From assembly GCF_021026315.1 (NCBI RefSeq), contig NZ_JAJNCX010000004.1, positions 186,001 to 250,000 on the forward strand: 64,000 nt of DNA. The letters run 5' to 3'. This document shows, one piece after another, positions 57,958 through 62,955 of this stretch (position 1 is its first letter; each line of letters starts with the position of its first letter). The position numbers and the translations under genes were made by a program. The notes beneath the pieces were generated by a model, which searched no databases, had not been told where the DNA came from, and saw nothing but the letters and a program-made list of their open reading frames with translations. Source of the stretch: Rhizobium sp. C4 (lineage in GTDB: Bacteria > Pseudomonadota > Alphaproteobacteria > Rhizobiales > Rhizobiaceae).

Positions 57958-58575
57958 ATGACCAAGCGCACCGCTGCCAAGTACAAAATCGATCGCCGCA
58001 TGGGCGAGAACATCTGGGGCCGTCCGAAGTCCCCGGTCAACCGTCGCGAATACGGCCCGGGCCAGCACGGCCAGCGCCGCAAGGGCAAGCTTTCGGACTT
58101 CGGCGTGCAGCTGCGCGCCAAGCAGAAGCTCAAGGGCTACTACGGCGACCTGCGCGAAAAGCAGTTCAAGGCGATCTTCGCCGAAGCTGACCGCCGCAAG
58201 GGCGACACGGGCGAAAACCTGATCGGTCTGCTCGAATCGCGCCTCGACGCCATCGTCTACCGCGCCAAGTTCGTTCCGACGGTCTTCGCTGCCCGTCAGT
58301 TCGTCAACCATGGCCACGTTACGGTCAACGGCGTTCGCGTCAACATTGGTTCGTATGTCTGCAAGGCCGGCGACGTGATCGAAGTTCGCGAAAAGTCCAA
58401 GCAGCTCGTCGTCGTTCTCGAAGCCGTTTCGCTCGCTGAACGCGACGTTCCGGACTATATCGAAGCCGACCACAACAAGATGGTTGCAACCTTCGTTCGC
58501 GTTCCTTCGCTTTCCGACGTTCCGTATCCGGTCGTCATGGAACCGAACCTGGTCGTCGAATTCTATTCGCGCTGA
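57958..58575 (+). CDS. rpsD: 30S ribosomal protein S4
   Basis: A 205-residue S4, which starts assembly of the 30S body and binds 16S rRNA. Marks are [29 protein letters not shown], and the S4 domain [11 protein letters not shown] … [14 protein letters not shown] (about 95–155). The ATG at 57958 follows AAAAAGGAAATGCG. In many bacteria S4 controls its own mRNA; here the leader has two hairpins. Confidence 0.98.
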
Positions 58576-58608
58576 TTTTTCAGTCGCAAGACAGAATATA
58601 TCTTTGGA

Positions 58609-58640
58609 AAGCCGGCGATCTTGGTCGCCGGCTTCTTTAT
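58609..58640 (+). terminator. rpsD terminator
   Basis: AAGCCGGCGA (58609–58618) pairs with TCGCCGGCTT (58625–58634), followed by CTTTATTTT. Confidence 0.85.
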
Positions 58641-58711
58641 TTTGGGCCTTCAGAAGGTCAATCTGATTTTTGATCTTATTGTGTTTCAGCCACGCGGGCA
58701 GGCAGGCGATC

Positions 58712-60247
58712 TTGAAAGACAGAAACAAGCTTCAGGTGGGTCTTGACTGGCTCACCCGATCTTTTGCGGGTGTACTGGTATTTCTGGCAATCTATACGAT
58801 CTGCTGGACCATCATTCCATATTTCTCCAACGCCGGTCTTCCCGTCGATACGATCGAGGAAGTCGCGTGGTCCCGCGAGGGCCTGCTCGGTATCTACCGG
58901 CATCCGCCGATGATGATCTGGCTCGTCGGCATCGCCTGGAAGCTTTCCGGCGGGTGGATCGGAAGTCCCTATGTGGCCTCCGGCATTGCGTTGGGTGTCG
59001 GCCTCATCTTCATCTACCTGCTCCTGCGCATTACCCGACCGGCCTCGCAGGCCGGGCTTGTGGTGCTGGCCACGCCGCTCGTCTATTATTTCGGGCCGCA
59101 ACTGCCGCAATGGAATGCGAACATCGCGCAGCTGCCCTTTGTCGGCCTGTTCCTCTATGCGGCGTTTCGCGGGGTCATGACGCGGTCGCTCGGCTGGACG
59201 CTGCTGGCCGGTGTCGCGGCCGGGGCGGGGCTGCTCGGTAAGTATTCCTTCGGCCTGATCGTGCTTTTCGCCGCCGTCGGCCTGCTGGCCGATCCGGTGG
59301 CGCGGTCGCGGGTGAAGGTGCTGCATGTGTTTCTGGCATTCCTTGCCTCGGTGGTCGTCTTCCTGCCGCATGTCTGGTGGTTCTTCACCGCGCCGATGAA
59401 CACGGCCGATTATTTCCGCATGAGTGCCGAGCGCACGGAGGGGACGGCGCTTGGCCATCTGACAAGCCCGCTCTTCGTCATCCTTGGCGCCATCGGGGTG
59501 CTGATCCCGACAATGCTGATTGCGATTCGGGGTCTTGATCACGTGTCGCAGCCGCGGCGGACCGATTCGGCGGTTGATCGCAGCCTCAAGGTCTATCTCG
59601 GCTTTGTCGTCATCGGCCCGATCGCGATCGCAGCCTTCATCGGCGCACTTGGCGGCGGCTTGATCAAGGACCAGTGGCTGATCGCCTACATGCTTCCGGC
59701 GCCCGCGTTTGTCATCATGCTCCTCGTTCCGAACGGCGTGGAGGTCAGCTGGCGCAAGAGCGCGGCAATCTTTTATGTCGCGGTGCTGGTCATTCTGGCG
59801 ATTGCCTATCCGGTCGAGCGGCAGGCGCATTACTGGCGGGCCAATGGCCGTCCGGTCCTGTGGGCACCGCTGATGCCGGCAGAGCCCATGGCCGAGGCGG
59901 GGCAGGCGCTGTGGCGGAAGGCCGTGACCGCTGCCGGCAAGCCAGACATGCCGATCCAGATCGTCGCCGGGGGACCGGAGGCGGCGGGTGTCGCAAACGT
60001 GACGCCGGGCAGGCCTGCCTGGTTCGAGCATTACAACAAGGGTTATTCGCCCTGGGTCACGGATGCGCTCATTCGCAGCCAGGGCATTCTGGCGACCGAG
60101 GAAGTTCCCGTCGGTTATCCCGAAGCGAATGGGCTTTGTGTTGCCGCACAGGAAAATTTCGATTGGCGGAACGGCCGTGGTGGACAGGGGCGTATTGCGA
60201 CATTAACTGTTCTGCTGCCTGAAGGCCTTTGCCGTCCGGCTCCATGA
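58712..60247 (+). CDS. ArnT/GT39-like glycosyltransferase (FlmK-type candidate)
   Basis: A 511-residue membrane GT-C enzyme with about eleven hydrophobic segments. The first periplasmic loop has DTIEEVAW then YRHPPMMIWL, the acidic and HPP signature of enzymes that use polyprenyl-phosphate sugars (ArnT, FlmK, RgtABC). The C-terminal 110 residues are soluble. It is the first gene of a five-gene plus-strand operon with an ArnC-like synthase and a YdjC/NaxD-like deacetylase, so it likely transfers an amino sugar to lipid A or another envelope acceptor. The TTG start at 58712 is preferred; 58670 is also TTG. Confidence 0.8.
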   Translation: MKDRNKLQVGLDWLTRSFAGVLVFLAIYTICWTIIPYFSNAGLPVDTIEEVAWSREGLLGIYRHPPMMIWLVGIAWKLSGGWIGSPYVASGIALGVGLIFIYLLLRITRPASQAGLVVLATPLVYYFGPQLPQWNANIAQLPFVGLFLYAAFRGVMTRSLGWTLLAGVAAGAGLLGKYSFGLIVLFAAVGLLADPVARSRVKVLHVFLAFLASVVVFLPHVWWFFTAPMNTADYFRMSAERTEGTALGHLTSPLFVILGAIGVLIPTMLIAIRGLDHVSQPRRTDSAVDRSLKVYLGFVVIGPIAIAAFIGALGGGLIKDQWLIAYMLPAPAFVIMLLVPNGVEVSWRKSAAIFYVAVLVILAIAYPVERQAHYWRANGRPVLWAPLMPAEPMAEAGQALWRKAVTAAGKPDMPIQIVAGGPEAAGVANVTPGRPAWFEHYNKGYSPWVTDALIRSQGILATEEVPVGYPEANGLCVAAQENFDWRNGRGGQGRIATLTVLLPEGLCRPAP

Positions 60248-60269
60248 AACTGCTAGGTCTGGTTCCTGC

Positions 60270-61220
60270 ATGCCCTTGTTCTCGATTGTCGCGCCGTTTC
60301 TGAACGAACGGGAGTCTGCCGAACGCTTTGGAGCGTTCGCGGACAAGCTCGCGCTTGAGATCAAGAGCCGCTTCGGGTTCGATCTGGAAGTGGTGCTCGT
60401 CGACGATGGCAGCACCGACGACAGTATCGAGCGCTATCGGGCGCATCTCAACGGCAGCTGGCGCATCATCGAGCTCAGCCGCAATTTCGGCAAGGAAGTG
60501 GCGCTCTACGCAGGCCTTGCCGAGACGCGCGGCGACTATGTGATGATGATCGACGCCGACCTTCAGCACCCTTACGACGTCTGCATCCAGATGATCGACG
60601 AGCTGATGGCGGACCCCAAGCTTGATGTCGTCTATACGATCCGCGACGACCGCAACGAGGAATCCTGGAGGAAGGCGCTTGCCGGGCGGTTCTTCTACTG
60701 GCTCATCAATTTCCGCCAGCGCTTCGAAGTGCCGGAAAATGCCGGCGACTTCCGGGTCATGAACCGCGCTGCGGTCGATGCGCTGCTGCGGGTGCGTGAC
60801 AAGCGCCGTTTCAACAAGGGCCTCTATGCCTGGGCCGGCTTCCGGCAGAAGGGCATCTACTACCGGCCGGATCCGCGCCTTTCGGGCGTGACAAAGTGGT
60901 CAAGACTCGGGCTGATCGCGCTCTCCGTCGAGGGCATCGTGTCCTTCTCCGCTCTGCCGCTCCGGATCATGTCGATCATTGGCGTGCTGACGGGTCTCGC
61001 CGGCATTGTCTATGGCGCGCATATCATCTTCAGTTCGCTGGTATTCGGGACCGATGTTCCGGGCTATCCGAGCCTGATGTCCGCGATTTCTGTCCTCGGC
61101 GGCTTCAATCTGGCGCTTCTCGGTCTCCTTGGCGAGTATATCTGGGTGACGATTGCGGAGGTGAAGGACCGGCCGCTCTACATCGTGCGCAAGGTTCATC
61201 GCTCGGACGACGTGTCATGA
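60270..61220 (+). CDS. ArnC/DPM1-like GT2 polyprenyl-phosphate sugar transferase
   Basis: A 316-residue family 2 glycosyltransferase. The catalytic core has SIVAPFLNERESAE, LVDDGSTDDS and MMIDADLQHP (DxD), and the end has two transmembrane segments (about 230–260 and 270–300). This layout is of ArnC, DPM1 and FlmF2, which load a sugar from a nucleotide to undecaprenyl phosphate. It is 22 bases after the GT-C gene and overlaps the deacetylase gene by four bases. Confidence 0.87.
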   Translation: MPLFSIVAPFLNERESAERFGAFADKLALEIKSRFGFDLEVVLVDDGSTDDSIERYRAHLNGSWRIIELSRNFGKEVALYAGLAETRGDYVMMIDADLQHPYDVCIQMIDELMADPKLDVVYTIRDDRNEESWRKALAGRFFYWLINFRQRFEVPENAGDFRVMNRAAVDALLRVRDKRRFNKGLYAWAGFRQKGIYYRPDPRLSGVTKWSRLGLIALSVEGIVSFSALPLRIMSIIGVLTGLAGIVYGAHIIFSSLVFGTDVPGYPSLMSAISVLGGFNLALLGLLGEYIWVTIAEVKDRPLYIVRKVHRSDDVS

Positions 61221-62071
61221 GCAGGACCGGAGGCTCGAAGCGGGACGGTCTCACTCTGGTTGCGGATGACTATGGCCTTGCGCCGGGCGTCAACCGCGCG
61301 ATCCGCAAGCTGATCTCCGCCGGCAAGATCGACGGCACGGGCTGCATGACGCTGTTTGGCGACTGGCGCGTCGAGGCGGCAGGCCTGAAGGCGCTGGTTG
61401 ATCAGGGCTATGCCGAGGCGGGGCTTCATCTGACGCTGACCGACTTCAATCCGATGACCGGACGCAATGCCTTCGGGCAGAACCGGCGCATGCCGAAGGT
61501 CGATGCGCTGATCAAGGCAAGCTTCCAGGGCAAGGTCAATGTGGCGGCCGTCGAAGGCGAACTCGACGCGCAGTTTGCGGCCTTTGTGGAAACGATGGGC
61601 GGGTTGCCGGCCTATATCGACGGTCACCAGCATGTGCATTTCCTGCCGGCGGTGCGGGTATGGCTCGCAAAGCGGGCGGCCCTGTTTGCCGAATACGGCA
61701 AGCTGCCATGGCTCCGCGGCGCACCTTCGGTGATGGCGGCGCCCGGCTTGAAGATCAAGGCGAAGACGGTCGTTGTCGCAGTCGTTGCAGCCGGCTTCGA
61801 GACGGCGATGCGCAAGCACGGCTACAGCATCCGCGGCCCGCTGCTCGGCTTCTACGACTGGACGCGGCCGGAAGAATTCGAACCCATGCTGCGTGGCCTG
61901 ATCGAGAAGGGCAATTACGGCGTCTTCATGTGCCATCCCGGTTTTGTCGACAAGGTTCTGCGCCAGCGCGACGTGCTGGTCGAGGGGCGCGATGTCGAAT
62001 ATTCGGTTCTCGCCAATCTTGATCCGACGCTCATGCGCATTGAATCGAGCCTCCGGCAGAGGGCCACATGA
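61217..62071 (+). CDS. YdjC/ChbG family deacetylase (NaxD-like)
   Basis: A 284-residue carbohydrate deacetylase. Motifs are [16 protein letters not shown] (the acidic metal pair), GLHLTLTDF, and [13 protein letters not shown] (two histidine ligands). Some members remove the N-acetyl group from polyprenyl-phosphate GalNAc (Francisella NaxD) or from chitobiose or hopanoid sugars. Its place between an ArnC-like synthase and an ArnT-like transferase points to the NaxD role. ATGA overlap on both sides shows coupling. Confidence 0.85.
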
Positions 62072-62955
62072 ATATTGCAATCACGCCCGACGAACACGCC
62101 GAAGCCGCGACCGAGAGCTTTGCCGGCGACGCGTCCATGACGGCGCTCTATGCGCATGCGCCGCAGTCCTCGAATTTCAACAAGCTGCGCAAGCGGCTGC
62201 TGCGGAACGTCCGGCAGGCGATAGACGATTTTGCCATGCTGAAAGGCCAGACCCGCTGGCTGGTGGCGCTTTCCGGCGGCAAGGACAGCTACGGGCTGCT
62301 GGCAATCCTGATGGAGCTCAAGTGGCGCGGGCTGCTGCCGGTGGAGCTCATTGCCTGCAATATCGACCAGGGCCAGCCGAACTTTCCCAAACATGTCCTG
62401 CCGGACTACCTGACCTCGCTCGGGATCCAGCATCGGATCGAATATCGCGACACCTATTCGATCGTGAAGGAAAAGGTGCCGGAAGGGGCGACCTATTGCG
62501 CGCTCTGTTCTCGGCTTCGGCGCGGCAATCTCTACCGGATCGCCAAGGAGGAGGGCTGCGACGCGCTCGTTCTCGGCCATCATCGGGAAGACATTCTCGA
62601 GACCTTCTTCCTCAATCTCTTCCATGGCGCCAAGCTCGCCACCATGCCGCCGAAGCTCGTCAATGACGAGGGCGACCTGATGGTGCTCCGCCCGCTTGCC
62701 TATTGCGCGGAAGAGGACATGGCAAAGTTTGCGGCAGCCATGCAGTTCCCGATCATCCCCTGCGATCTCTGCGGCTCGCAGGACGGTCTGCAGCGGAACG
62801 CGATGAAGGACATGCTGGCCGGCATCGAGGCGAAGATGCCGGGCCGCAAGGAGGTGATGATGAAGGCGATGGCCAACATCAACCCGTCGCATATGCTGGA
62901 TAAGAGCTTGTTCGACTTCGCTTCGCTGACACTCTCGAAAGACAGACAGGACTGA
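62068..62955 (+). CDS. ttcA: tRNA 2-thiocytidine(32) synthetase TtcA
   Basis: A 295-residue enzyme that thiolates C32 of tRNA with ATP and an iron–sulphur cluster. The PP-loop [10 protein letters not shown] is at about 69–78, and the cluster cysteines are in [10 protein letters not shown] and [10 protein letters not shown]. It overlaps the deacetylase stop by four bases, though its function is unrelated; a shared operon is likely only translational. Confidence 0.93.

Follow-up and report, generated by a model that had tools for sequence, protein, structure and literature searches.

The locus and its genes

Between rpsD and ttcA in the genome of Rhizobium sp. C4 (Rhizobiaceae) lies a run of three genes encoding a glycosyltransferase of the GT-C type, a family 2 glycosyltransferase (GT2) and a YdjC-family deacetylase. 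The triad belongs to a 64,000-nucleotide stretch of DNA that was analysed as a whole and is called the window here (contig NZ_JAJNCX010000004.1 of assembly GCF_021026315.1, positions 186,001 to 250,000 of the forward strand; positions below are counted from its first letter), and it is real, conserved and likely to represent an amino-sugar pathway of the cell envelope. The original prediction, made from the letters of the window, had read the three genes as one operon of ArnT-like, ArnC-like and NaxD-like members matching the three steps of Francisella FlmF2, NaxD and FlmK, by which an amino sugar is added to lipid A. Its account of the layout (Table 1) holds in all coordinates and couplings: the PMT_2 (GT-C) gene and the GT2 gene are 22 bases apart, and the GT2 and YdjC genes overlap by four bases (ATGA, 61217-61220). 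A further four-base overlap, between YdjC and ttcA, was missing from that account and extends the gene run into a tRNA-modification gene.

The PMT_2, Glycos_transf_2 and YdjC matches of the triad to Pfam all exceed the curated cut-offs. The TTG start of the GT-C gene has a similar context in three named relatives (L002, L003 and L004), and in comparison with the same relatives the ratio of non-synonymous to synonymous substitution rates (dN/dS) is 0.08-0.13 for the GT-C gene, 0.04-0.05 for the GT2 gene and 0.06-0.07 for YdjC. The preserved TTG context and ratios of 0.04-0.13 argue that all three genes are real, and the triad, judged by these ratios, is under purifying selection. By the YdjC protein the nearest named relatives are Rhizobium sp. 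C1 (L003) and two isolates designated ‘Rhizobiales bacterium’ (90-93%); YdjC was found in four of the five other genomes of the genus, and all four keep the order GT-C, GT2, YdjC, ttcA.

Upstream, the triad is bordered by a terminator-like hairpin downstream of rpsD; since the region holds eight such sites against 5.3 (standard deviation 2.3) expected by shuffling, this hairpin is weak evidence on its own. A promoter scan of the forward strand of the region, which says little for this organism, returned no sigma-70-like site. Downstream, ttcA is the border of the triad and stands outside the pathway, and it is followed by a gene of the inositol-monophosphatase family.

Table 1. The triad of the Rhizobium sp. 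C4 window and the features that flank it.
Feature	Position in the window	Strand	Evidence and remarks
rpsD	57961-58575		upstream of the triad; S4 models above cut-off
Hairpin, terminator-like	58609..58634	+	3' of rpsD; upstream operon border; 11-pair stem, then T-rich tail
GT-C glycosyltransferase, PMT_2, 511 amino acids	58712..60247	+	TTG start; PF13231, 67.8 bits
GT2 (GtrB class), 316 amino acids	60270..61220	+	PF00535 Glycos_transf_2, 88.6 bits
YdjC-family deacetylase (DGHQH clade), 284 amino acids	61217..62071	+	PF04794, 131.5 bits
ttcA (tRNA 2-thiocytidine synthetase)	62068..62955	+	TtcA model, 435.9 bits (cut-off 272)

The YdjC deacetylase

The genome that contains the window has one YdjC gene. 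Public annotation merges proteins of this kind under the name ‘ChbG/HpnK family deacetylase’, and the window protein remains below the cut-offs of both models concerned (ChbG, 73.8 bits, cut-off 227; HpnK, 33.2 bits, cut-off 232.6). Its active-site motif is DGHQHVH, and the YdjC protein of an Acinetobacter baumannii operon, taken here for NaxD, has DGHQHIH, whereas DSHHHVH is found in the ChbG rows, and NAHKHFH or a near variant in most of the HpnK clade, of which the one row checked scores 344 bits as HpnK. Residues A16, D17, D18, H71, D135, H137, H139, H141 and H240 are invariant in nine proteins that include Escherichia coli ChbG, and we take the metal ligands of the family to be among them.

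Kinship was examined with a quick tree of 102 rows, obtained from 116 unique sequences by leaving out 25 locus identifiers, which took away 15 sequences (13 Azospirillum-type loci, L038 and L047), and adding the window row. The window and A. baumannii proteins fall into one clade of 59 rows with a support of 93 by the Shimodaira-Hasegawa-like approximate likelihood ratio test (SH-aLRT), and ChbG and HpnK fall outside it. Because that tree raised a long-branch flag for A. baumannii, kinship was examined again in a more careful tree of 35 selected rows, backed by approximately unbiased (AU) tests. In that tree 26 rows with the DGH motif, A. baumannii among them, lie on one side of a branch with a support of 100/99, and the AU tests rejected placing the A. 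baumannii protein with ChbG (p 0.00016) or with HpnK (p 7e-7). The window and A. baumannii proteins are 25% identical. By sequence, then, the deacetylase is kin to NaxD, for which the A. baumannii protein stood in, rather than to ChbG or HpnK, and the grouping with these two enzymes that the original prediction had named as evidence against itself was not found in the sequences. In the quick tree, 14 Rhizobiaceae YdjC proteins that have neither the DGH motif nor a GT2 neighbour (L086, L087, L091, L094-L096, L098, L100-L102, L105, L110, L112 and L113) form a separate group that joins neither ChbG nor HpnK nor the NaxD-type clade.

The predicted fold of the window protein (mean predicted local distance difference test score, pLDDT, 89.9; alignment of 16 rows) has ChbG as its nearest solved chain, which does not decide the substrate; ArnD appears in the same fold search at rank 16 (E 3.1e-3). 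The stretch from the HxH to the CHP motif has a median length of 95 residues for the DGH clade (measured in 70 of its 73 rows), 96 for HpnK (12/12) and 74 for ChbG (5/5), and its hydropathy differs little among the three; as a signal that sets the DGH clade apart from ChbG, its length is suggestive only.

The GT2 enzyme and its pairing with YdjC

The second gene had been called ArnC-like, which is a loose name. Its product is of the polyprenyl-phosphate-sugar synthase kind and lies nearer to GtrB and PgfS (196-228 bits) than to ArnC (99-118 bits). Over its full length it matches the GtrB chain sll0501 of the PDB with 227.9 bits (E 1.5e-66, residues 4-307), and the ArnC chains of the PDB with 99-105 bits; the PgfS model gives 195.9 bits and the ArnC model 117.8 bits (ArnC cut-off 529), both under cut-off. 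By these scores the GT2 is of the GtrB class and not of the ArnC class. A GT2 from one Rgt-like cluster of the family scores in reverse (ArnC 180 bits, PgfS 121 bits). The GT2 of the A. baumannii operon is 38% identical to that of the window.

A YdjC match is present in 51 of the 297 Rhizobiaceae genomes. At 49 places in these genomes (52 YdjC places less G184, G109 and, below the cut-off, G169), YdjC with the DGH motif adjoins a GtrB-like GT2 in 33 of 34 cases and YdjC without the motif in none of 15, where adjoining means a GT2 of at least 200 bits on the same strand and within 4 kb. The tree places one of the 15 (G135, L122) within the clade, which makes the pairing 33 of 35 when counted by clade. 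Among all 116 unique YdjC sequences a GT2 stands beside 48 of the 71 with the motif and two of the 45 without it, where ‘no GT2’ is a lower bound for the loci of the phylum search, which are its best 30 places with about 1.5 kb of flank. Membership of the DGH clade together with this near-constant pairing fits the loading and deacetylating of a lipid-linked N-acetylhexosamine (HexNAc). The DGHQH motif and an adjoining GtrB-like GT2 also provide a simple rule by which YdjC deacetylases that probably act on lipid carriers can be separated from ChbG and HpnK.

Other arrangements occur in Azospirillum. In Azospirillum ramasamyi (L161:5967-7858), the one annotated example, a DGHQH-type YdjC gene overlaps a gene for an EamA transporter, with no GtrB-like GT2 near, and several Azospirillum-type loci have a GtrA-like frame on the opposite strand, a GT2 being absent from most of them.

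The GT-C transferase

The description of the first gene as ArnT-like has to be given up. The NCBIfam ArnT model (NF009784) does not match its product even at E<=1, nor does any other NCBIfam model at that limit, and proteins of the same class behave alike (no ArnT match for L158 at 0.01, or for L053 and L007 at 0.001). Matches to the model, all under its cut-off of 567, are given by the GT39 that A. baumannii has in its operon (186 bits), by an ArnT-type partner in another Rhizobiaceae genome (L055, 149 bits) and by a second GT-C protein from the genome of the window (L049, 125 bits). ArnT carries the motifs RYA and YFEKP, with Tyr-43 and Lys-69, according to PMC5377068. The window protein has neither motif and no KPP, but RHPP instead; the ArnT-type controls retain the motifs in part, with RYA and AKPP in L055, RYG and HKPP in A. 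baumannii, and DKPP without RY[AG] in the protein from the window's own genome. The model miss and the absent motifs rule out ArnT as the identity of the first gene, and its product reaches the GT-C protein of the A. baumannii operon with an E of only 0.008.

The stretch DTIEEVAWSREGLLGIYRHPPMMIW of the window protein corresponds in spacing to DEAEQ...GYG.QPP.YNW of tandem GT-C genes that stand beside a GT2 in other Rhizobiaceae, the common pattern being D..E (14 residues from D to G) ...PP...W. By their layout and motif, these tandem clusters are presumably rgtABC with rgtE. In profile comparison the window's GT-C class scores 209.5 (E 6.6e-27) with the Rgt-like clusters and 69.7 (E 3.6e-8) with the ArnT-type set. 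A tree of GT-C proteins separates an ArnT-type group (support 99) from an Rgt-like group (100) and places the subgroup of the window on the Rgt-like side, with other members of its class opposite; as the joins are weak (86) and a long-branch warning was raised, kinship with Rgt is likely but not settled. A search with the protein in plasmid records gave no match.

In other Rhizobiaceae (L219-L226), an ArnC-type GT2 is flanked by GT-C genes in tandem that share a DEAEQ...QPPxYNW motif, probably the rgt cluster. The genome of the window contains two PMT_2 genes and two GtrB-like GT2 genes; the second GT-C is ArnT-type (L049:7004-8698, G000:C9; 125 bits), the second GT2 (L050:8118-9122, G000:C23) is 39% identical to that of the window, and the two are unlinked and accompanied by no further YdjC. 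No Rgt-like match at E<=1e-50 was obtained in this genome among the five of ten candidates that were scored.

Rgt-like genes of at least 300 bits, a list picked by hand that retains 49 of 72 matching genomes, occur in 49 of the 297 family genomes: in none of the 23 that carry the GT2-YdjC pair of the window type and in 49 of the 274 others (Fisher p 0.019). Against an exclusion of one system by the other, the genomes in this count are not independent, the genus level is not significant (sets of 10 and 20 genera out of 109 share one, with about 1.8 expected), one of the 23 (G182) has an Rgt-like match at a looser limit, and in G314 and G135 Rgt-like genes coexist with an orphan YdjC that belongs to this clade. 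No claim of exclusion is drawn. It is a doubtful proposal that some Rhizobiaceae without an Rgt-like cluster might instead use a chimeric route, in which a NaxD-type donor arm makes a positively charged hexosamine and an Rgt-like transferase puts it on those positions of lipopolysaccharide (LPS), in the core 3-deoxy-D-manno-oct-2-ulosonic acid (Kdo) or lipid A, that galacturonic acid, with its negative charge, occupies in other rhizobia.

Cassette variants and the rpsD-ttcA site

At the 33 places where YdjC and GT2 are coupled, a GT-C gene of the window's class lies within 4 kb in 19, an ArnT-type one in six and neither in eight; in four of these eight (G032, G154, G101 and G182) the window-class GT-C has a match elsewhere in the genome. 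GtrA lies within 4 kb in 21 of the 33. The six ArnT-type cassettes (L055, L117, L118, L120, L121 and L124) resemble the A. baumannii operon. In one of them (L055:7374-8147) the GT2 frame is short, at 257 amino acids, and a longer guessed frame had a stop, which points to a possible truncation or sequencing error in this gene. That ArnT-type and Rgt-like transferases occur beside the same donor pair suggests one donor arm serving different acceptors.

The A. baumannii operon itself (CP040041, L157:5983-9790) consists of YdjC followed by GT2, GtrA and the GT39 gene with the ArnT match given above. Only a single YdjC place occurs in each of three A. baumannii records of chromosome size, and for this reason the YdjC gene of the operon is inferred to be the published naxD. 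The enzymes for galactosamine (GalN) transport and attachment in A. baumannii are described as not identified in PMC9431647, and the GT2, GtrA and GT39 of this operon are natural candidates for the carrier and transfer steps.

The junction between rpsD and ttcA (58576-62067 in the window; also L006, L007, L053 and L194) is variable, being occupied by the triad, by other inserts, by an inverted cassette or by nothing. In the fifth congener (G002) rpsD adjoins ttcA and the triad is absent. Among more distant relatives, the GT2-YdjC pair at this site keeps company with a glutaminase gene in L006 and with a different GT-C in L007; L053 has a GT-C together with GtrA, YdjC and GT2 on the opposite strand.

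Proposed pathway and alternatives

The evidence on the three proteins can be joined into one scheme, in which the operon would furnish the cell envelope with an amino sugar by way of a lipid carrier, combining a NaxD-type donor arm with an Rgt-like transfer to LPS; on sequence comparison we give this scheme about an even chance. In the scheme, the GtrB-class GT2 would load an N-acetylhexosamine from its uridine diphosphate (UDP) form onto polyprenyl phosphate at the cytoplasmic side, as expected from its family. The YdjC protein would then remove the acetyl group and leave a positively charged polyprenyl-phosphate-hexosamine, a step suggested by its clade, its motif and its pairing with the GT2. 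Flipping would be carried out by a protein encoded outside the operon; in many relatives a GtrA gene is next door. Finally, and this is the weakest step, the Rgt-like GT-C would transfer the hexosamine to a periplasmic acceptor, most probably the inner core of LPS or lipid A. The decoration for which the LPS of rhizobia is known, galacturonic acid, is negatively charged. An amino-sugar route that is conserved would, if true, reverse the charge and so affect the encounter of these bacteria with antimicrobial peptides from plants.

Several observations count against the scheme. Substrate, sugar and acceptor are assigned from sequence, and acceptors other than LPS, such as a surface polysaccharide or another lipid, may be served. 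The class of the GT-C is uncharacterised and its place in the tree is weak, and the predicted structure of the window protein (mean pLDDT 37.4, alignment of five rows) is too poor for a fold search. The pair of GT2 and YdjC lacks a GT-C neighbour in L005 and L006, so that the GT-C is not a fixed partner. The single GtrA found in the window's genome lies beside another GT2, with none in the triad operon, and most of the 23 DGH rows that lack a GT2 are of the Azospirillum type.

Among the alternatives, the one closest to the original prediction is a system of the Francisella type, with galactosamine attached to a phosphate of lipid A and with greater tolerance of polymyxin-type peptides. The three kinds of enzyme agree in broad terms, the deacetylase shares a clade with the protein of the A. 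baumannii operon, and NaxD acts on undecaprenyl-phosphate-N-acetylgalactosamine ahead of GalN addition to lipid A (PMC10927774 and PMC11279074). The transferase, however, does not agree, for that of the window misses the ArnT model and both motifs while that of A. baumannii matches the model, and the lipid A phosphate is removed in Rhizobium etli and Rhizobium leguminosarum, the species concerned in PMC11279074; we consider a system of this type possible but unlikely. The three-step match on which the original prediction was built is thus retained for the deacetylase and its coupled GT2 and withdrawn for an ArnT-type transferase, with A. baumannii as the stand-in for Francisella.

The cassette might also decorate another envelope glycan (an O-antigen, a capsule or a membrane glycolipid) with a deacetylated sugar, in the manner of GtrA, GtrB and Gtr systems. 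The GtrB class of the GT2 and the proximity of GtrA in 21 of the 33 cassettes of relatives speak for this, and the class of GT-C differs between cassettes, as would be expected if acceptors vary. At the loci inspected, though, the window shows no polysaccharide cluster next to the triad, and the transferase profile is nearer to Rgt-like enzymes. The Rgt enzymes of described rhizobia act on LPS. On this balance a different glycan seems rather improbable as the target. Far less probable still is that a chitobiose deacetylase (ChbG) or a hopanoid deacetylase (HpnK) merely happens to neighbour two glycosyltransferases. The shared Pfam family, the nearest solved structure and the weak matches to both models would be in its favour, but model cut-offs, motif and tree position rule out either enzyme as the identity of the protein, and a GT2 accompanies the DGH-motif proteins in 33 of 34 cases against none of 15 for the others.

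Comparison with known systems

Among the open-access papers listed, neither titles nor the first lines of abstracts pointed to an amino-sugar system of this kind in rhizobia, which is no proof of absence. NaxD and Rhizobium are treated in separate entries of PMC11279074, and rgtE, rgtF and lpxE of Mesorhizobium and Phyllobacterium are dealt with in PMC5644692.

The nearest counterpart among the sequences compared is the presumed naxD operon of A. baumannii, in which a YdjC of the same clade stands beside a GT2 and a GT-C and the same order of steps is expected. It differs in that its GT-C matches the ArnT model (186 bits), whereas the GT-C of the window has no match, and in that it includes a GtrA, which the operon of the window lacks. 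Francisella FlmF2, NaxD and FlmK are likened from papers and represented by A. baumannii in the sequence comparisons; flmF2 and flmK are adjacent by locus number in PMC4688374.

The Arn system for 4-amino-4-deoxy-L-arabinose (L-Ara4N) follows a similar logic, with a sugar on undecaprenyl phosphate, deacylation and transfer by a GT-C, but the GT-C of the window fails the ArnT model and motifs, its GT2 is not of the ArnC class, and the Arn deacylase has the ArnD fold whereas the deacetylase of the window is a YdjC protein. The Rgt system (RgtA-D, and RgtF with RgtE) is alike, judged by the presumed rgt clusters, in the spacing of GT-C motifs and is found in the same bacterial family as the window. 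Its sugar is an acid and that proposed for the route of the window is an amino sugar; the GT2 of the Rgt-like cluster is of the ArnC class by the scores above, whereas that of the window is of the GtrB class. To our knowledge the Rgt system has no deacetylase.

A likeness by description can finally be drawn with LgmB of Bordetella, an inner-membrane transferase that adds a hexosamine to the envelope, namely glucosamine to the phosphates of lipid A (PMC8168481). By analogy, the donor arm of the window's operon would work as in the NaxD and Lgm systems, and its last step as in the Rgt enzymes.

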